A DNA stretch of 29,594 nucleotides from Kocuria sp. p3-SID1428 (GTDB lineage Bacteria > Actinomycetota > Actinomycetes > Actinomycetales > Micrococcaceae): contig NZ_JALXVH010000033.1 of the NCBI RefSeq assembly GCF_025149945.1, positions 1-29,594 on the forward strand, written 5' to 3'. Shown here one piece after another: positions 8,920 through 18,116 of this stretch. The first letter of the stretch is position 1. Every line of letters begins with the position of its first letter. The translations under genes and the position numbers were made by a program. The notes under the pieces were generated by a model that searched no databases, was not told where the DNA came from, and worked only from the letters and a program-made list of their open reading frames with translations.

Positions 8920-9891
8920 TCAGCCACTCGTGGCGGCGCGGGAAGGATCCGTGTCCCGGGTCTCGACGAAGGCCTGCAGCCGGACATCGGCGGCGCTGTC
9001 GGAGCCCGGCACCGGGGACGCGGACCCGACAGCGGCAGGAGCCGCGATGGAGCCGACGACGACGGACTTGCGCCGGGTCAGCCACGCGAACAGCAGCAGG
9101 CCCACTGCGATCAGAGCGGCTGCGGTGAAGACGTGGATGCGGATGCCCAGCAGCATGGCCGAGGGATCGATGCGCAGGAAGAGCTCGATCAGCATGCGCC
9201 CGGTGCCGTACCAGATCAGGTACAGCGCCATCGAGCGGCCGCCGTCGACGCGATGGGCGGTGGCGCGGCTGCGTCCCAGCCAGATGATCAGGCCCGCACC
9301 CAGCAGGTTCCACAGCGACTCGTACAGGAACGTGGGGTGGAACAGCGTGTCGGCAGGCAGTCCCTCCGGGAAGTTGCCCGAGGTGGGCGAGATCTCCAGG
9401 CCCCACGGCAGGGTGGTGGGGCGCCCGAAGAGCTCCTGGTTGAACCAGTTGCCCCAGCGGCCCAGGGCCTGGGCCACGAGCAGCGCCGGTGCCACGCAGT
9501 CGGCGAACAGGGCATAGGACGTCCCGCGCAGCCGGCACACGATCCACACGGCCAGCGCGCCGAAGGCCACGCCGCCCATGATCCCCAGCCCGCCCTTCCA
9601 CAGCTGCGGGATCTCGATCAGGCCCTGGGCGGAGCCGAAGTAGTACGACGGATCCGTGATGAGCACGTGGTACAGCCGAGCCCCGATGATGCCCAGCGGG
9701 ATGGCCAGAAGCGCCGCATCCATGACGAAGTCGCCGTCCTGGCCGCGGGCCTCCATGCGCCGGCTCGTGAGCGCGATCGCCGCCGCCATCCCGAGCAGGA
9801 TGCACAGGGCGTAGGCGTGGACCTCGAAGGGCCCGAACGAGAACCCGCTCCAGCTCGGCGAGGGGATCGACAGCGTGGGCGAGACGAGCAT
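8920..9891 (-). CDS. lgt: Prolipoprotein diacylglyceryl transferase
   Basis: Integral membrane enzyme that moves diacylglycerol from phosphatidylglycerol onto the lipobox cysteine of secreted prolipoproteins. It is 323 residues with about seven hydrophobic segments. The signature GRWGNWFNQELFG with its Arg, Asn and Glu is intact, and the C-terminal WYGTGRMLIELF arginine motif is present. The His of the E. coli HGG motif is Met here (GIMGG); loss of that His is also known in actinobacterial enzymes. The last 45 or so residues form a polar, Ala/Ser-rich cytosolic tail. The ATG at 9889-9891 has AGGAAGG upstream. It lies 82 nt after trpA, the usual actinobacterial position. Client lipoproteins in this window are the ABC binding protein and CtaC. 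A weak hairpin (8879-8893) lies downstream. Confidence 0.96.
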   Translation of the reverse strand: MLVSPTLSIPSPSWSGFSFGPFEVHAYALCILLGMAAAIALTSRRMEARGQDGDFVMDAALLAIPLGIIGARLYHVLITDPSYYFGSAQGLIEIPQLWKGGLGIMGGVAFGALAVWIVCRLRGTSYALFADCVAPALLVAQALGRWGNWFNQELFGRPTTLPWGLEISPTSGNFPEGLPADTLFHPTFLYESLWNLLGAGLIIWLGRSRATAHRVDGGRSMALYLIWYGTGRMLIELFLRIDPSAMLLGIRIHVFTAAALIAVGLLLFAWLTRRKSVVVGSIAAPAAVGSASPVPGSDSAADVRLQAFVETRDTDPSRAATSG

Positions 9892-9940
9892 GGGGGCCTT
9901 CCTGCTGCAGGTGCGCTCGGGAGGGGGTGGGAGGTGAGCC

Positions 9941-9965
9941 GGTGCGGGTGCTGTGCACCCGCACC
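9941..9965 (-). terminator. Hairpin between trpA and lgt
   Basis: A perfect 11-bp stem (9941-9951 with 9955-9965) and 3-nt loop start 8 nt after the trpA stop. No U-run follows. It may end or attenuate the trp transcript, or stabilise the mRNA 3' end, before lgt. Confidence 0.5.
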
Positions 9966-9973
9966 GGGAGGGA

Positions 9974-10906
9974 TCAGCTGCGGCCGGCGAGCTCGGCGGC
10001 CAGACGTCCGACGGCCTCGGCGCCGCCGTCGCGCAGGGCCTTCACGAGCGCGGTGCCCACGATCACGCCGTCGGCGTAGGCGCCGATCTCCTCGACATGC
10101 TCGCGGCGCGACACGCCCAGCCCGACGCACACGTTCTGCGCGCCTGCCGCACGGGCTCGCCGCACGACGTCCTGGGCGGCGTCCGAGACCGAGTCCCGGG
10201 CGCCGGTGACTCCCATGACGGACACGGCGTACACGAATCCGGACGCCGCCCGGGCCGTCATCTCCATGCGCTCGCGCGTGCTGGACGGGGCGACCAGGAA
10301 GATCCGGTCCAGCCCGTGGGCCGTGGAGGCCTCGAACCACTCCTGGGCCTCGTCCGGGATCAGGTCCGGGGTCACGATCCCCGAGCCGCCGGCGGCTGCC
10401 AGATCGGCGGCGAAGCGGTCCACGCCGTGCTGCATGACCAGGTTCCAGTAGGTCATCACGACGGCGACGGCGTCCGTTCGCTCGGTGATCGCCTGCACGA
10501 CGCGGAAGGCGTCCTCGGTGCTGACCCCGCGGGCGAGGGCCTGCGTGGTGGCCGCCTGGATGACCTCGCCGTCCATGACGGGGTCCGAGTACGGCAGGCC
10601 GACCTCGACGACATCTGCTCCGCCGCGGCCCAGGGCGACGGCGGCCTCGATGGACTCCTCGACGCTCGGGTAGCCGGCGGGCAGGTAGCCGATCAGCGCG
10701 GGCCGGCCCTCCGAGCGGCACTGCTCGATGCGCGCGGCCAGCCGCGAGTCGGGATCCTGAGCCAGACCCTCGGGGAGGAGCCGCTCGATCAGCGACCCGG
10801 GTCCGGACAGGCGCTCGGCCTGCACGGCAGCCTGAGGTGCCCCGGTCTGCTCGGTGACTGCTGCCTCGCCCGGGCGCTGGGACCCGGTGCTGCTGGTCTG
10901 GCTCAC
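9974..10906 (-). CDS. trpA: Tryptophan synthase alpha chain
   Basis: Cleaves indole-3-glycerol phosphate to indole and glyceraldehyde 3-phosphate; indole is channelled to TrpB. Catalytic Glu101 and Asp112 are visible in [14 protein letters not shown], and the TIM-barrel phosphate loop is recognisable near the C-terminus ([11 protein letters not shown]). At 310 residues it is about 40 longer than usual because of an N-terminal, low-homology extension ahead of [11 protein letters not shown] chose the GTG at 10904-10906, which overlaps the trpCB stop as GTGA and has AGGGGGAG at good spacing. An in-frame GTG at codon 18 is the alternative and would give about 293 residues. Overlap implies translational coupling to the TrpC-TrpB fusion. 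Confidence 0.95.
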
Positions 10907-13035
10907 AGCTGCTCCCCCTTCTCGGCGATCTTCTCTTCCCGGGAGTCGTCCGGGAGCATGTCGAACCACTCGGCGGCGGCGGCCACGTCCTTGTCCCCGC
11001 GCCCGGACAGCGACACGACGACGATCTTCTGCGCTGCTGCCTCCTCGCCCAGCTGCTCGCGCCACGCGGCGCCGAGCTGCACGGCACCGGCCAGGGCGTG
11101 TGAGGACTCGATGGCCGGGATGATGCCCTCGGTGCGGCACAGCACCCGGAACGCGTCCATGGCCTGGTCATCCGTGATCGCCGTGTAGACGGCCCGCCCG
11201 CTGGCGGCCAGGTGGGCGTGCTCAGGACCCACGGCCGGGTAGTCCAGGCCGGCGGAGATCGAGTGCGACTCGATGGTCTGCCCGTCCTCGTCCTGCATGA
11301 GGAACGTCTTGGCACCGTGCAGCACGCCGGGACGGCCCAGCGAGATGGTCGCGGCGTGGCGCGGGGTGTCCACGCCGTCGCCGCCTGCCTCGAAGCCGTG
11401 CAGCTCGACCTCGGGGTCATCCAGGAACGCGTGGAAGATGCCGATCGCATTCGAGCCGCCGCCCACGCAGGCGGCCACGGCGTCCGGGAGGCGGCCGGTC
11501 TGCGCCAGGATCTGGGCGCGGGCCTCGTCGCCGATCTGCTGGTGGAACCAGCGGACCATGGCCGGGAAAGGATGCGGGCCGGCCGCGGTTCCCAGCAGGT
11601 AGTGGGTGGTGTCCACGGAGGACACCCAGTCGCGCAGGGCCTCGTTGATCGCGTCCTTGAGCGTCTGCGAGCCGTGCTCCACGGCCACGACCTCGGCACC
11701 CAGCAGGTTCATCCGCGCGACGTTCAGGGCCTGGCGGCGGGTGTCCTCAGCGCCCATGTAGACCACGCACTCCATGCCCAGCAGCGCGGCGGCTGTGGCC
11801 GTGGCCACGCCGTGCTGCCCCGCGCCGGTCTCGGCGATCAGACGGGTCTTGCCCATGCGCTGGGCGAGCAGTGCCTGGCCCAGCACGTTGTTGATCTTGT
11901 GCGAGCCCGTGTGATTGAGGTCCTCGCGCTTGAGGAAGACGCGGCAGCCCGCGTGGGCCCCGAAGCGCTCGGCCTCGCTGAGCAGCGACGGGCGATTGGC
12001 GTAGTCGCGCGACAGCGCCTGGAACTGCTCCAGGAACTCGGGGTCGGCCTTGGCCTTCTCGAAGGTGTCGGTGACCTGATCGAGAGCGGCGATCAGGGAC
12101 TCGGGCATCCAGCGTCCGCCGAAGTCGCCGAAGTACGGTCCCGGGGCGTCCGAGTACCTGCGCTGGCCGGCCTGGGCCTCTCGCCGGCCTCGGGCCGCGG
12201 CGCGGATCGACTCGCCGAGGGTGCGGAACTGCGCGACGGTGCCGACCGGATCCCCGGCGCGCACCAGGGCCTCACCCGTGAGCACGGCATGGGCGCCCTG
12301 TCTGGCATAGTCCTCGATCTGGCCCGGGCCGCTGACCCCGGACTCGGCGACCAGCACGGCATCGGTCGGCAGGTGCTCGGCCAGGTGCCCGAAGCGATCG
12401 GTGTCGACATCGAGGGTCTTCAGGTCGCGGGTGTTGACCCCCACGATCTTCGCCCCCACCGCCGCCGCCCGGCGGATCTCCTCCTCGGTGTGCGTCTCCA
12501 CGAGGGCCTGCATCCCGAGATCCTCGGTGACCGCCAGCAGATGGGCCAGGGCGACGTCGTCCAGGGCGGCGACGATCAGCAGGATGAGATCGGCGCCGTG
12601 GGCACGAGCCTCGTGGATCTGGTACTCGTCGACCGTGAAGTCCTTGCGCAGGACCGGCACGTCCACGGCGGCGCGCACCGCGTCCAGATCCCCCAGCGAA
12701 CCGCCGAAGCGGCGCTGCTCGGTGAGCACGGAGATCACGGCCGCTCCCCCGCGCTCATACGCCGCGGCCAGGGCGGCGGGGTCCTCGATCGGGGCCAGGG
12801 CGCCCTTGGAGGGCGAGGAGCGCTTGACCTCGGCGATGATCTCGAGCGAGTCCTGGTGCGCTCCGCGCAGCGCGGCGATGGCATCGCGGGCCGGGGCCGC
12901 CTGGGCGGCCGCTCGTCGGATCTCCTCGAGCGGCACGACGGCGCGCCGGGCCTCGAGGTCCTCGCGGACACCGTCGATGATGGAGTCGAGGACCGTTCCG
13001 GTGGCCCTCACGCTTCCCTCGGGCTGCTCGGTCAT
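10903..13035 (-). CDS. trpCB: TrpC-TrpB fusion: indole-3-glycerol-phosphate synthase / tryptophan synthase beta
   Basis: One uninterrupted 710-residue frame carries two full enzymes. Residues 1 to about 275 are TrpC, with Glu69 and Lys71 (AEVKRSSPS), Lys131 (RKDF), Glu180, Asn201 and Glu231 matching the catalytic set of the family. After a linker of roughly 18 Arg/Ala/Gln-rich residues, TrpB begins at about 294 ([14 protein letters not shown]). It contains the PLP lysine Lys380 (HTGSHKINN) and the GGGSNA phosphate loop. Around the junction (about 12150-12240) I see no ATG, GTG or TTG in any frame and no strong ribosome binding site, so a separate TrpB start is unlikely. The start is ATG at 13033-13035 with AGGAGAGGA upstream. 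TrpA follows with a 4-nt overlap. Tethering should place the synthase that makes indole-glycerol phosphate beside the TrpA-TrpB complex that consumes it (inference). Confidence 0.95.
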
Positions 13036-13081
13036 ACGGGACGTGTCCTCTCCTGGAAGTCTGTGGTGGTCGCGGCATGGA

Positions 13082-13173
13082 CCGACCCGCAGGCCGGCTG
13101 ATCCGGTGCGGGTCGGGCTGATCGCGCAGCAGGGCGATCGGTGGCTCGCCAACGCTGCGTCCGCCGGCGAGCC
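13082..13173 (-). promoter_or_regulatory. Three consecutive hairpins in the trpCB leader
   Basis: In the 145 nt before trpCB are three perfect inverted repeats: 13143-13150 with 13166-13173 (8 bp), 13120-13125 with 13134-13139 (6 bp), and 13082-13091 with 13107-13116 (10 bp). No Trp-codon-rich leader peptide is seen, so classical attenuation is not supported. The first hairpin starts 7 nt after the preceding stop codon and may be a partial terminator. The others could be control or mRNA-stability elements. Confidence 0.4.
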
Positions 13174-13180
13174 GAGCGGG

Positions 13181-13516
13181 TCAGTGCTTGAGCTCGCCGC
13201 GCTCGTACTTGCGGACCTCGCCCTCGTAGCCCATGCCCATGCCCTTGAGGACGGCGCCCACGATCAGGCCCAGGACGACGACTCCCCCGCCGACCCACAT
13301 CAGGACGCTGCCGAGCTCCTGCACGAAGCCGATCAGGCCGATGACGATGCCCACGGACATGACGGCCACGCATGCCCAGGCGGCGACCGTGTTCCCGTGA
13401 CCGACGTAGCCGGTGTGGTCCAGGACGATGACATCCGGGCCGTGGGCCTCGCGCTCGGCCTCGAGGCGGGCTGCGGCCTCCGACGGTGCGGCGGAGCTGG
13501 TGGTCGCGTGCGACAT
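13181..13516 (-). CDS. Small two-helix membrane protein of the trp cluster (DUF6704-like)
   Basis: A 111-residue protein with a polar N-terminus (about 1-43), a motif [11 protein letters not shown] (about 40-50), and two hydrophobic segments (about 45-65 and 70-90). A short charged tail ([15 protein letters not shown]) follows. Similar small proteins with an HG...AAW motif sit between the Trp-associated membrane protein and trpC in related actinobacteria. I believe this is the DUF6704 family, but that name is from memory. The function is unknown; position suggests a link to tryptophan metabolism or simply conserved synteny. The ATG has GGGAG about 11 nt upstream. It is separated from its neighbours by 132 nt and 145 nt. 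Confidence 0.8.
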
Positions 13517-13648
13517 GGGTTCAGGTCTCCCTGCGGTGCTCGGGGTCGGGCCCCTCGTGCGGGGCGCCGACCAGTGATGGCGGTGCTGGACTCCATTGTG
13601 CCACTGACCGCGACTGTGACGCTCAGCGACAGGTGCGGAAGCGGCGGT

Positions 13649-14245
13649 TCAGGAGCCGGTGGGGTCGCGCCCTTCGGTCAGGGCATCCCACGAGTCGATG
13701 TCATCGCGGCGGTCCGACTCGCGCTCGTCCTCGCCTGCGGCCCGGCGCTGAGCCGTGCCGCGCTCGAAGCGCGAGGGGCCCGCAGCGGCCCAGGTCCGTG
13801 CCGAGACCAGGGCCCAGAGACCGCCGAGGATCACGAGGGCCGAGGCCGCGGCGCACAGCCAGGGCCCGGCCGTGAGCTCGTGCTCGGCTCCCGTGCCGAC
13901 CACGCCGGTCATCTCCCCGACGACGCCCTCGGAGACGCCGACAGGATCGGCGATCGCGCCGATCACGGCGATCAGCGAGCCCAGCCCGGAAGCGGCGATC
14001 ACCAGGGCCACGACCGGTCGCATGCGAGGACCGGCGATGGTCAGCGCCACCGCACCGGCCATGGCGACCAGTCCGAGGGCCGAGACAGCAGGAGCGGCGT
14101 CGCTGCCGCGCACGTCCACGTCGATCTGCGAGACCGCGGTGGCCACACTCGCGTGGACCCAGGTCATGGCGGAGGTGCCGAACAGCACGGCCCCCAGGGC
14201 CAGGCACAGCAGGACCACGATCGGCTTGCGCCGCAGGGCTGTCAT
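13649..14245 (-). CDS. Trp biosynthesis-associated membrane protein (TIGR02234 family)
   Basis: A 198-residue protein with four predicted membrane segments (about 8-28, 52-72, 77-97 and 128-148) and a charged, Arg/Asp/Glu-rich cytosolic tail of about 45 residues. Location and topology match the family found beside trpE in actinobacteria (Rv1610 in M. tuberculosis). The sequence TSAMTWVHA after the first helix is typical. The biochemical role is unknown; roles in Trp transport or enzyme anchoring have only been guessed. Its ATG overlaps the trpE stop as ATGA, so it is translationally coupled to trpE. Confidence 0.88.
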   Translation of the reverse strand: MTALRRKPIVVLLCLALGAVLFGTSAMTWVHASVATAVSQIDVDVRGSDAAPAVSALGLVAMAGAVALTIAGPRMRPVVALVIAASGLGSLIAVIGAIADPVGVSEGVVGEMTGVVGTGAEHELTAGPWLCAAASALVILGGLWALVSARTWAAAGPSRFERGTAQRRAAGEDERESDRRDDIDSWDALTEGRDPTGS

Positions 14246-15849
14246 CGGGCGGCTCCCGCGGCATCGTCGAACTGCTGCCGGGCCTCAGCGCCCAGACGGC
14301 GCGGGCGGCGCACGGACTGGGCGGCCAGGGCTGCGCGCAGCGGCGCCGCGGCCTTGTTCAGCGACTCGAGCGCCTCGGTCTCCGGGACGGAGTCGGCCAC
14401 GATCCCGCCGCCGGCCTGGACGTAGGCGCGTCCGTCGACGAGCAGCGCCGAGCGGATGGCGATGGCCACGTCCATGGAGCCGGCGAAGTCCATGTAGCCG
14501 ACCACTCCGCCGTAGACGGCGCGGCGCCGCGGCTCGTACTGGTCGAGCAGCTTCAGGGCGCGCGGTTTGGGCGCCCCGGACAGCGTGCCGGCGGGGAAGG
14601 CCGCGGCCAGGACGTCGTAGGCGCTCACGTCCGGGCGCATGCGCCCGACCACGTTGGAGCACAGGTGCATGATGTGGCTGAACCGCTCGATCGCCATGAA
14701 CTCGGTGACCTCCACCGAGCCCGGCTCGCAGACCTTGGAGAGATCGTTGCGCGAGAGGTCCACCAGCATGAGGTGCTCGGCGCGCTCCTTCTCATCGGCC
14801 AGCAGCTCCTGCCCCAGCGCCTGATCCTGCTCCGCCGTGGCCCCGCGGGGACGGGAGCCGGCGATCGGGTGGGTGACGACCTGGCCGTCCGAGACGTTCA
14901 CGAGCGCCTCCGGGGAGGAGCCGACCACGTGGAAGGGCCGGCCGTCGGCGTCCTCGAATGCGTAGAGGTACATGTAGGGACTCGGGTTGATCGAGCGCAG
15001 CATGCGGTAGACCTCCAGCGGATCCGCCGAGCACTCGACCTCGAAGCGCCGGGAGATCACGACCTGGAAGATCTCGCCGTCCACGATGGCCCTCTTGGCC
15101 TCCTCGATCGCGCTGAGGAAGTCCTCGCGCGGCCAGGACTGCTCGACGGCCTCCTCGATCCGGTCCCGGTCGATCACATCCTGGGCGATCGAGACCGGGG
15201 ACTGCGGCGACGGCCGGTCGAGCTTCTCGAGCATGGCGTCCAGACGCTCGACGGCATCCCGCCAGGCCTCATCCACGCGCCCGTCGGTGCCGTCGGCGTT
15301 GTAGGCATTGGCCACGAGCGTCACGGAGCCGTCCGTGTTGTCGTGCACGGCCATCTCCGAGACCAGGTTCATGGCCAGCTCAGGGATGCCCAGATCGTCC
15401 TGGGGCGGATCGGGCAGCTTCTCCCAGCGGCGCACGACCTCCCAGCCCAGGAAGCCGACCATGCCCGAGGACAGCGGCGGCGCGTCCTGGAAGCGCTCGG
15501 TGGCCAGCACGGACAGCGTCTCGCGCAGCGCCTCGACCGGGCTGCCGTCCACCGGCAGACCGACGGGGACGTCGCCGAGCCAGTGCGCCTGGCCGTCTCT
15601 GCTGATCAGGGTGGCGCGCGATCCCGCGCCGATGAACGACCAGCGCGACCAGATGCCCTGGGCGGCGGACTCCATCAGGAAGGTGCCCGACGGCGCCGTG
15701 CCGTCCTCGCTCAGCACCAGGCTGCGGTAGATCCCGATCGGGGTCAGCGCATCGGCCATCACCGTGGTGCGCACGGGGATGACGCGGTGATGCTTCGCCA
15801 GCTCCCGGAACTCCTCGAGACTCGGGGAGACGGTGCCCATCTGGTGCAT
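14242..15849 (-). CDS. trpE: Anthranilate synthase component I
   Basis: Makes anthranilate from chorismate with ammonia or glutamine nitrogen, the first committed step to tryptophan. At 535 residues it has the N-terminal regulatory domain (FLMESAA is the Trp-sensing LLES-type motif) and the chorismate-binding domain (PIAGSRPRG, DEKERAEHLMLVDLSRND, GAPKPRA, YGGVVGYMDF). I place the start at the ATG 15847-15849, preceded by AGGAAGAAG; conserved sequence (MGTVSPSLEEF) begins three codons later. An upstream in-frame ATG at 15906 would add 19 non-conserved residues. No trpG (amidotransferase) is adjacent, as is usual in this lineage; it must be supplied from elsewhere. Confidence 0.96.
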   Translation of the reverse strand: MHQMGTVSPSLEEFRELAKHHRVIPVRTTVMADALTPIGIYRSLVLSEDGTAPSGTFLMESAAQGIWSRWSFIGAGSRATLISRDGQAHWLGDVPVGLPVDGSPVEALRETLSVLATERFQDAPPLSSGMVGFLGWEVVRRWEKLPDPPQDDLGIPELAMNLVSEMAVHDNTDGSVTLVANAYNADGTDGRVDEAWRDAVERLDAMLEKLDRPSPQSPVSIAQDVIDRDRIEEAVEQSWPREDFLSAIEEAKRAIVDGEIFQVVISRRFEVECSADPLEVYRMLRSINPSPYMYLYAFEDADGRPFHVVGSSPEALVNVSDGQVVTHPIAGSRPRGATAEQDQALGQELLADEKERAEHLMLVDLSRNDLSKVCEPGSVEVTEFMAIERFSHIMHLCSNVVGRMRPDVSAYDVLAAAFPAGTLSGAPKPRALKLLDQYEPRRRAVYGGVVGYMDFAGSMDVAIAIRSALLVDGRAYVQAGGGIVADSVPETEALESLNKAAAPLRAALAAQSVRRPRRLGAEARQQFDDAAGAAR

Positions 15850-15948
15850 GATGCGACTTCTTCCTGCCGGGAGATCCCGGCCGTGATCTGGGTGCCGGTC
15901 CGTCATGGCGGGGCGCTCCAGGCAGGCTGCAGCGACCGCGCCGGCGCC

Positions 15949-16341
15949 TCAGCGCTCGCCCTGGACCGCCTGCAGCTGCCGGTCATCGAAGCATGTGCGC
16001 GTTCCTGTGTGGCAGGCCGGGCCCACCTGATCGACCTCGACCAGCAGGGCATCGCCGTCGCAGTCCAGGCTGATGCGGCGCACGAGCTGGATGTTCCCGG
16101 AGGTGTCGCCCTTGCGCCACAGCTCCTGCCGGGAGCGGGACCAGAACGTCACGCGACCGGTGGTGAGGGTGCGGTGCACAGCCTCCTCGTCCATCCAGCC
16201 GAGCATGAGCACCTCTCGGGTGTCGTGCTGCTGGATGATCGCGGCCACGAGGCCGTCGGCATCGCGCTTCAAGCGCGCGGCGACCGCGGGGTCCAGCTCG
16301 GGCGAGGACGGGCGGGCTGAGGGGCTGGGCTGTTCGTACAT
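15949..16341 (-). CDS. hisI: Phosphoribosyl-AMP cyclohydrolase
   Basis: Third step of histidine synthesis, hydrolytic opening of phosphoribosyl-AMP. The 130-residue length is right for a stand-alone HisI, with HisE encoded separately. Motifs seen are [28 protein letters not shown] and SGN near the middle, the metal-site CDGDALL, and the C-terminal CHTGTRTCF with its zinc cysteines. Start is ATG at 16339-16341 directly after an in-frame GTG (16342-16344). Neither has a clear ribosome binding site, while a -10-like TATAGT lies 5-8 nt upstream. The transcript may therefore be leaderless. trpE follows 99 nt later, so hisI and trpE may share a transcript. Confidence 0.95.
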
Positions 16342-16349
16342 CACCGGAC

Positions 16350-16355
16350 ACTATA
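16350..16355 (-). promoter_or_regulatory. Candidate -10 for leaderless hisI transcript
   Basis: TATAGT on the minus strand fits the actinobacterial TAnnnT -10 consensus. It ends 8 nt before the hisI ATG and 5 nt before the adjoining GTG, which is the distance expected from a -10 to a transcription start. No good -35 is seen. Confidence 0.45.
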
Positions 16356-16412
16356 GGCCCGCGCTCGGACGCCTCGGCCGCGCAGCTCGGCTCAGCGCTC
16401 GCAGCGATCCGC

Positions 16413-17177
16413 TCAGCGGACCTCGTGGCCCTCGGCGCGCAGCGCCGCCTTGACCTCGGCGATGGCGTCGACCGGCCCGAAGTGGAAGATCGAGGCTGCC
16501 AGCACGGCATCGGCGCCGGCGGCCACGGCGGGCGGGAAGTCTGCCGGACCGCCTGCACCTCCCGAGGCGATCAGGGGAACGCTCACCGCCGAGCGGACCT
16601 CCCGGATCATCTCCAGGTCGAAGCCCTCCCGTGTGCCGTCGGCATCCATCGAGTTGAGCAGGATCTCCCCGACTCCGCGGCGCTCGGCCTCGGCAGCCCA
16701 TTCGACCGCGTCGATCCCGGTGAGCTCCCGGCCGCCGTGCGTGGTGACCTCGAAGCCCGAAGCCGTTGTGCCCGTGCGCTTGGCATCGCAGGACAGCACG
16801 AGCACCTGATTGCCGAAGCGGCGGGTGATCTCGTCGATCACGTCCGGGCGCTTGATCGCCGCCGTGTTGATCGAGGCCTTGTCCGCCCCGCAGCGCAGCA
16901 GACGATCAACATCTTCGGCGGTGCGCACGCCGCCGCCCACGGTCAGCGGGATGAACACCCGATCCGCGGTGCGAGCGACGACGTCGAACGTGGTGGCCCG
17001 ATCCGAGGACGAGGCGGTGACGTCCAGGAAGGTCAGCTCATCGGCGCCGGCCTCGTTGTACCGGGCCGCCAGCTCGACCGGATCGCCTGCATCGCGCAGG
17101 TTCTCGAAGTTGACGCCCTTCACGACACGCCCGGCGTCGACGTCCAGACACGGGATGACGCGGATGGCCACACTCAC
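16413..17177 (-). CDS. hisF: Imidazole glycerol phosphate synthase subunit HisF
   Basis: Cyclase subunit that, with HisH, converts PRFAR plus ammonia to imidazole glycerol phosphate and AICAR. It is a 254-residue (beta/alpha)8 barrel. The two catalytic aspartates are Asp12 ([14 protein letters not shown]) and Asp131 (LSCDAKR), and both half-barrel phosphate loops are present (LTVGGGVR and IASGGAGG). Start is GTG at 17175-17177 with AAGGAGAAG upstream, giving the family's usual N-terminus; an ATG 8 codons upstream lacks support. The partner genes hisH and hisA are not in this window. It lies 93 nt after hisG and 71 nt before hisI. Confidence 0.96.
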
Positions 17178-17270
17178 GGCTTCTCCTTGCATTGCCCGCA
17201 CATGCGGGCTGGTGATCGAGGTGGATCAGGTCCTCTGACGGTCGCTGAAGCTGCACAGCGACTCGCGGCC

Positions 17271-18116
17271 TCAGAGCCGGGCCGCGTGGATCGGCGAGAC
17301 CAGGATGGCCCGGGCGCCCACGGCGTAGAGCTCGTCCATGACCTTGTTGGTATCTGCCCGGCGGACCATGGCCCTCACCGCCATGGCCCCGCGGTGACCC
17401 AGCGGCGAGATGGTGGGGCCTTCCATGCCGGGGGTCACGGCCGTGGCGGCCTCGAGCAGGTCCTCAGTGATGTCGTAGTCGATCATCACGTACTGCCTGG
17501 CCACGAGCACGCCCTGGATGCGTCGGCGCAGGACCTCCAGGCCCTCGGCCTCCGCCTTGGCGGCGTTGCGGATGAGCAGGGCCTCGGAGCGCATGATCGG
17601 CTCGCCGAAGATCTCCAGTCCGGCCGCCCGCAGCGTGTTGCCGGTCTCCACGACGTCGGCGATGGCATCTGCGACGCCCAGGCGGATCGAGGACTCGACG
17701 GCTCCGTCCAGGCGCACGACCTCGGCCTGGACTCCCTGCTGCGCCAGGTGGCGGCGCAGCAGGCTGTCGTAGCTGGTGGCCACGCGGCGGCCCTCGAGGT
17801 CCTGCAGCGAGGAGAACTGCCCGGCCGGGCCGGCGAAGCGGAACGTCGAGCGGGCGAAGTCCAGGCCCAGGTCCTCGACGGCGTCAGCCTCGGAGTCCAG
17901 CAGCAGGTCGCGGCCGGTGATCCCGACATCCAGCACTCCTCCCCCGACGTAGACGGCGATATCGCGCGGACGCAGGTAGAAGAACTCGACGTGGTTCTCC
18001 GGGTCGACCAGCACGAGCTCTCGGCTGTCGCGGCGCTGGCGGTAGCCCGCCTCGCTCAGCATGGCGGCGGCGGACTCTGACAGGGCGCCCTTGTTGGGCA
18101 CGGCGACGCGCAGCAT
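17271..18116 (-). CDS. hisG: ATP phosphoribosyltransferase, long form
   Basis: First and feedback-controlled step of histidine synthesis, joining ATP and PRPP. The 281-residue length, with a C-terminal part of about 75 residues (ITEDLLEAATAVTPGMEGPTI onward) that matches the ACT-like regulatory domain, identifies the long form that binds histidine itself. The catalytic core includes LRVAVPNKGAL, the DVGITGRD loop, and a PRPP-binding region around DAIADVVETGNTL. The ATG has AGGAG about 11 nt upstream. It follows hisE by 82 nt, the usual hisE-hisG pair of actinobacteria. Confidence 0.96.
   Translation of the reverse strand: MLRVAVPNKGALSESAAAMLSEAGYRQRRDSRELVLVDPENHVEFFYLRPRDIAVYVGGGVLDVGITGRDLLLDSEADAVEDLGLDFARSTFRFAGPAGQFSSLQDLEGRRVATSYDSLLRRHLAQQGVQAEVVRLDGAVESSIRLGVADAIADVVETGNTLRAAGLEIFGEPIMRSEALLIRNAAKAEAEGLEVLRRRIQGVLVARQYVMIDYDITEDLLEAATAVTPGMEGPTISPLGHRGAMAVRAMVRRADTNKVMDELYAVGARAILVSPIHAARL

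Follow-up and report, generated by a model that had tools for sequence, protein, structure and literature searches.

Do the indole-3-glycerol-phosphate synthase (IGPS; TrpC) and the tryptophan synthase beta subunit (TrpB) of Kocuria exist as one polypeptide, or is a gene boundary being overlooked? The question is raised by a 29,594-nucleotide stretch of DNA from Kocuria sp. p3-SID1428 (assembly GCF_025149945.1, contig NZ_JALXVH010000033.1; hereafter, the window), in which a first-pass annotation had described a single 710-residue TrpC–TrpB protein. The position it gave proved right. The gene, here called trpCB, occupies 10903..13035 on the minus strand and reads from ATG to TGA with no internal stops, giving a product of 710 residues and 75.4 kDa. 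The evidence presented below indicates that trpCB is very probably a genuine, genus-wide fusion in Kocuria, in which two ordinary enzymes are joined by a flexible tether.

Both halves of the protein are readily assigned. The TrpC half scores 267.7 bits against PF00218 (cut-off 27) and 386 against NF001369 (cut-off 329). Its best solved relatives are the indole-3-glycerol phosphate synthases 4fb7 and 3qja of M. tuberculosis; chain 4fb7_A aligns over residues 11–274 and chain 3qja_A over residues 13–274. The TrpB half scores 587.8 bits against TIGR00263 (cut-off 392.45). IGPS and PALP are the only Pfam matches in the 710-residue protein, and TrpC precedes TrpB in one open frame. The active-site sets of TrpC (E69, K71, K131, E180, N201, E231 and S232) and TrpB (K380, E402, H408, D598 and S677) are all present and are invariant across an alignment of 42 selected fusion proteins. 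Their catalytic roles are presumably those of the corresponding positions in the E. coli and Salmonella enzymes. Thus, the domain matches and the listed residues agree with the initial description of two full-length enzymes that retain their catalytic residues.

A missed stop codon or a frameshift introduced by sequencing or assembly could mimic such a fusion, and three fused-looking matches elsewhere (P0038–P0040) do resemble frameshifts in the TrpC tail. In Kocuria, however, TrpC and TrpB share one stop-to-stop frame in 26 of the 27 genus genomes (L001–L025 and L141). We judged fusion by stop-to-stop segments because neighboring TrpC and TrpB may share a frame and yet have a stop between them, as in G041, G043 and G046, which are in the same frame but split. 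A single near full-length, stop-free match was obtained for 25 of the 27 genomes, the nearest of which (G001) is 94% identical in the trpCB protein. The match in G020 consists of two pieces of one frame (L141) and was classed as fused. In G003, which is 79% complete, the frame is open through the linker to the contig end, and TrpB is found on another contig in two frames. Moreover, each of the 27 genomes has exactly one IGPS match (PF00218) and exactly one TrpB above the cut-off. The genus-wide conservation of the joined frame refutes an assembly artefact, leaving it a negligible probability, and agrees with the earlier view that no annotation artefact is involved. The accompanying suggestion that the fusion may occur in some relatives, to be pursued by a search of actinobacterial genomes, turned out to be well founded: it is present throughout the genus and also in other groups of Actinomycetota.

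Is there room at the junction for a second translation start? As the first-pass annotation had stated, residues 259–309 are devoid of ATG, GTG and TTG in all three forward frames, and residues 276–293 have the Arg/Ala/Gln-rich composition that it described. Its statement that there is no ribosome binding site holds within this stretch but not at the edge, where GAGG lies 5 nt before GTG258, the nearest upstream candidate for an internal start. If translation also began at GTG258, the cell would hold free TrpB in addition to the fusion, and a publicly deposited K. palustris protein (P0037, 453 aa) indeed consists of TrpB alone, with a first codon matching GTG258. Over 452 residues, P0037 agrees without a difference with the fused frame of L002, a near neighbor in the tree described below. 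Named matches place the group in Kocuria, and the window lies near K. palustris. However, P0037 owes its start to annotation, not to an experiment. In addition, GTG258 sits in the TrpC motif GEALV and the upstream GAGG letters are codons of that motif; the split relatives inspected also have this motif inside TrpC, well before their TrpB start. Internal initiation at GTG258 therefore seems to us improbable. The downstream candidate, ATG310, lies inside the conserved start of TrpB, and a TrpB begun there would miss the first part of this conserved stretch.

The way in which the gene changes between close species is informative about the linker. Compared with L001, the locus of the nearest genome, TrpB differs at 11/5/80 sites (codon positions 1/2/3), TrpC at 11/7/61 and the linker (residues 269–300) at 4/6/9; compared with L002, the linker differs at 9/10/12. 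Linker length is equal in the window, L001 and L002. Judged by these substitution patterns, selection at the protein level acts strongly on both domains and hardly at all on the linker, as would befit a weakly constrained tether. An AlphaFold2 monomer model (mean predicted local distance difference test score 80.9, predicted template modeling score 0.55) places the C-terminal helix of TrpC at residues 263–289 and has low confidence at residues 287–291 and 300–309 and at residues 552–602 of TrpB. The model displays no fixed TrpC–TrpB arrangement, in keeping with two enzymes that are flexibly joined, and is uninformative on the complex with TrpA.

These features suggest how the protein may have originated and how it may work. 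The ancestor would have lacked trpF, with the isomerase step carried out by PriA, and its trpC and trpB would already have been adjacent; once the stop codon of trpC and the start codon of trpB were lost, the two would have become a single frame. The TrpB half would pair as usual with TrpA, the product of the overlapping next gene, to form an alpha-beta-beta-alpha complex with a TrpC barrel hanging from the N-terminus of each TrpB. The main effect would be that TrpC and TrpB are supplied at a fixed 1:1 ratio and kept physically close. A directed transfer of indole-glycerol phosphate (IGP) to TrpA is possible, but the data do not favor it over simple co-supply. In a true metabolon, TrpC would hand IGP directly to TrpA bound on TrpB, an idea that gains from the established pathway, in which the TrpA partner consumes IGP, and from the same enzyme order being fused in apparently separate lineages. 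Yet the junction, measured from GE(A/V)LV to GPY, is 38–62 residues long in 32 Kocuria rows (a set that includes duplicate records of the same genome), the linker evolves fast, the structural model lacks a fixed arrangement, and no kinetic study of a TrpC–TrpB fusion turned up among the open-licence papers listed. We regard such a metabolon as unlikely. The first-pass annotation had called substrate channelling to TrpA plausible; a linker that diverges this quickly among closely related species fits a plain tether better than a built channel.

The genomic surroundings bear on the proposed origin. On the minus strand, the gene order is hisG, hisF, hisI, trpE, a Trp-operon membrane protein, an HGxxPAAW protein, trpCB, trpA, lgt, a gltB-like gene and a gltD-like gene (coordinates are given in Table 1). 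TrpF (PF00697) was found in none of the 27 genus genomes, with a control positive in 14 of 14, and in none of 24 genomes of family f4 and the Actinomyces family, split ones included. All 27 genus genomes have a PriA (TIGR01919) match over the cut-off, at a place other than 16413–17201; that gene had been considered as a PriA candidate and was ruled out by its NCBIfam match to HisF. According to PMC1854888, the usual bacterial order has trpF between trpC and trpB. Loss of trpF may thus have made trpC and trpB neighbors, but as split relatives also lack TrpF, this loss is a precondition at most. If begun at the GTG overlapping the trpCB stop, TrpA carries about 60 residues ahead of its conserved core, the match beginning at residue 62. 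Going by the letters only, ATGA or GTGA is likewise seen at the corresponding stop in most of the remaining Kocuria, as well as in some of the split relatives inspected. A promoter and terminator scan of 9900–17300 returned 0 and 0 sites, and Rfam at the gathering threshold returned 0 matches, results that say little for GC-rich DNA.

Table 1. Features of the trpCB locus in the window
Feature	Coordinates	Strand	Evidence
trpCB, fused indole-3-glycerol-phosphate synthase / tryptophan synthase beta, 710 aa	10903..13035	-	ORF (open reading frame) and domain matches
TrpC (IGPS) domain, residues 16-263	12247..12990	-	PF00218 267.7 bits; solved TrpC chains
End of TrpC and linker, residues 264-300	12136..12246	-	
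TrpB domain, residues 301-688	10972..12135	-	TIGR00263; best solved match 5tcf_B
Stretch without ATG, GTG or TTG in any coding-strand frame, residues 259-309	12109..12261	-	
GTG258, nearest upstream internal start candidate	12262..12264	-	
trpA, 310 aa if begun at GTG overlapping trpCB stop (GTGA)	9974..10906	-	TIGR00262 231.7 bits
lgt, next gene after trpA	8920..9891	-	TIGR00544 147.4 bits vs 118.9
Small protein of the HGxxPAAW family (DUF6704), upstream of trpCB	13181..13516	-	
Trp-operon-associated membrane protein (PF09534)	13649..14245	-	TIGR02234 below cut-off
trpE, anthranilate synthase component I	14242..15906	-	NF010086 729.1 bits vs 693
hisI	15949..16344	-	NF000768 179.5 bits vs 126
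hisF	16413..17201	-	TIGR00735 341.8 bits vs 294.55
hisG	17271..18116	-	

How far does the fusion extend beyond Kocuria? The counts given here are drawn from the matches listed and are lower bounds; a fusion that the search breaks into two pieces (as in G020 and G111) is missed when single matches are counted. Going by the matches listed, 31 of the 34 genomes from other genera of the same family are split, one is fused (G054) and two were not classed (G029, G055). Among 396 genomes of the order, the stop-free full matches listed belong to G001, at least 25 genomes of family f4 and at least 4 genomes of genus g50. Among 396 genomes of the phylum, only G001 has such a match among those listed, and this sample shows no f3 or f4 genome. 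From its resemblance to named matches, f4 is probably the bifidobacterial family. Matches to the g50 protein carry the names Actinomyces oris and A. viscosus, and all six g50 genomes examined are fused. Altogether, 185 sources were covered; 44 of them yielded no pair, namely 42 loci whose match was confined to TrpB, plus both G003 pieces.

The same searches returned several less typical cases. Several f4 genomes gave no match at all among the matches listed, and one (G408, L233) has separate, lower-scoring TrpC and TrpB 1252 nt apart that represent another type of these genes. P0043–P0045 are TrpC–TrpB fusions of 658 aa, of which P0043 has a short linker and, in the tree, sits on a long branch away from the remaining fusions. 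In P0038, P0039 and P0040, the TrpC tail turns Arg/Pro-rich, as a frameshift would give, and these are probably not true fusions. L191 (G415), from another genus of the Actinomyces family, has both a TrpC part, which is short, and a TrpB part in an open frame of 913 residues; its match was reported with internal TGA codons, though the frame reads stop-free.

Did the fusion arise once or repeatedly? We built a quick IQ-TREE phylogeny of TrpC plus TrpB under LG+C20 with 98 rows. These came from 158 prepared rows, of which 104 were named and 6 were lost as duplicates or as too short (including L191). P0038–P0040 were kept out because their TrpC tails look frameshifted, and 19 loci added after the tree, which gave one further fusion (G054), are absent from it. 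The 15 Kocuria rows are monophyletic (Shimodaira–Hasegawa-like approximate likelihood ratio test (SH-aLRT) support 99) and nested in a Micrococcaceae clade (support 100) that also holds 23 split rows and one other fusion, P0036. The 9 rows of Bifidobacteriaceae and the 6 of Actinomyces each group in a clade of their own, both with SH-aLRT support of 100. Mapping the fused and split states onto the tree requires 5 changes, P0036 and P0043 counted. In the approximately unbiased (AU) test, a joint clade of Kocuria and Bifidobacteriaceae was rejected (p-AU 0.0054), as was a joint clade of Kocuria and the Paenarthrobacter fusion P0036 (p-AU 7.8e-5). On the former result, descent of the Kocuria fusion from the bifidobacterial one was rejected, and the two appear to be separate.

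We read this tree as pointing to at least three separate fusions (Kocuria, Bifidobacteriaceae and Actinomyces), with the proviso that a tree alone cannot tell gain from loss. Because of the latter, a single ancestral fusion common to the three groups and lost many times by fission has to be weighed. All three groups belong to one order, and a joint clade of Kocuria and Actinomyces was rejected only at p-AU 0.033. Nevertheless, the rejection of a clade with Bifidobacteriaceae, the split state of nearly all other-genus family genomes and the fact that the linkers of the groups are unlike each other make a shared ancestral fusion highly improbable. A more ambitious proposal is that TrpC–TrpB fusion arose at least three times, perhaps five if Paenarthrobacter (P0036/G054) and the P0043 group are added, in trpF-less actinobacteria with adjacent trpC and trpB, and that tethering was selected for IGP hand-over, yielding a convergent TrpC–TrpB–TrpA metabolon. 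We consider this proposal speculative and give it a rather low chance of being correct.

A genuine fusion on a flexible tether that arose independently in Kocuria thus remains our preferred interpretation, but several points weigh against it. The fusion is read from DNA, and it is by the evidence of relatives that both enzymes are probably single-copy in this genome. The short record P0037 may stem from a record break, a gene-caller choice or internal initiation, all of which fit. All trees are quick trees without bootstrap, and the rejection of the joint clade with Actinomyces, which involves a long branch, is weaker than the others. Finally, the NCBIfam fusion model NF010375 has a cut-off of 1386, which the one Bifidobacterium protein tested reaches (1392) and which the trpCB protein (849) and four other Kocuria proteins (864–871) miss.

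The public names of Kocuria proteins tell a different story. Seven of the 17 named Kocuria clusters (among P0002–P0035), namely P0020, P0024, P0025, P0026, P0031, P0034 and P0035, are called 'bifunctional phosphoribosylanthranilate isomerase/tryptophan synthase subunit beta'. One (P0018) is correctly named IGPS/TrpB, eight are named after one half only and one is hypothetical. A TrpF/TrpB identity was rejected: Pfam finds IGPS and PALP only and, since the search of all 27 genus genomes turned up no TrpF, the name is wrong. The cut-off of the TrpF/TrpB model NF010376 (819) is exceeded by three of four Kocuria proteins (P0025, 858.6; P0018, 850.3; P0020, 824.3; P0003 scores 759.7), and the same four score below 1386 with NF010375. 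Exceeding one model while missing the other probably led to the wrong name, even though P0018 also exceeds NF010376 and is correctly named. Such names on some Kocuria proteins would mislead pathway reconstruction.

How does the Kocuria protein compare with known fusions? The first-pass annotation regarded TrpC–TrpB as a much less familiar combination than TrpC–TrpF or TrpA–TrpB, which needs correction: it has an NCBIfam model of its own (NF010375/PRK13802) and is in print for bifidobacteria, whose TrpB is described in the accessible part of a 2024 article as "a chimeric polypeptide with TrpC" (PMC11085991). No paper on the Kocuria fusion was found among the open-licence papers listed, and the available parts of PMC2395257, PMC11237513, PMC13055916 and PMC1854888 name TrpE–TrpG, TrpG–TrpD, TrpC–TrpF, TrpF–TrpB and other fusions, with TrpC–TrpB not among them.

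The related fusions differ in their partners or in their ancestry. TrpC–TrpF of the E. coli type (PRK09427) shares with the Kocuria protein an N-terminal TrpC, but the partner is TrpF instead of TrpB, and the trpCB protein scores 212.1 against a cut-off of 380. Conversely, TrpF–TrpB (NF010376/PRK13803; PMC11237513) has TrpB as its C-terminal half, but TrpF in place of TrpC at the N-terminus; here the trpCB protein scores 770.5 against 819. The fusion of Actinomyces oris and A. viscosus (755–757 aa) also has TrpC followed by TrpB in one chain and then trpA in the locus read, but it is only 48–49% identical in the alignment of 42 fusions, adjoins trpD and is a distant type in the tree. The Bifidobacterium chimera has the same domains in the same order, about 58% of residues are identical across 96% of the chain, and no TrpF was found on either side (27 genus genomes of Kocuria, 11 genomes of f4). 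Nonetheless, it is separate in the tree, has a different linker and is set apart by the NF010375 scores (849–871 for Kocuria vs the cut-off of 1386). The Kocuria protein has the same architecture as NF010375 and lies outside this curated family. It is therefore apparently an independently arisen example of a known architecture, and no new kind of enzyme. How fusion affects tryptophan synthase assembly is a question raised and left unanswered in the accessible part of PMC11085991, and the Kocuria chain provides a natural, genus-wide comparison for the bifidobacterial one.
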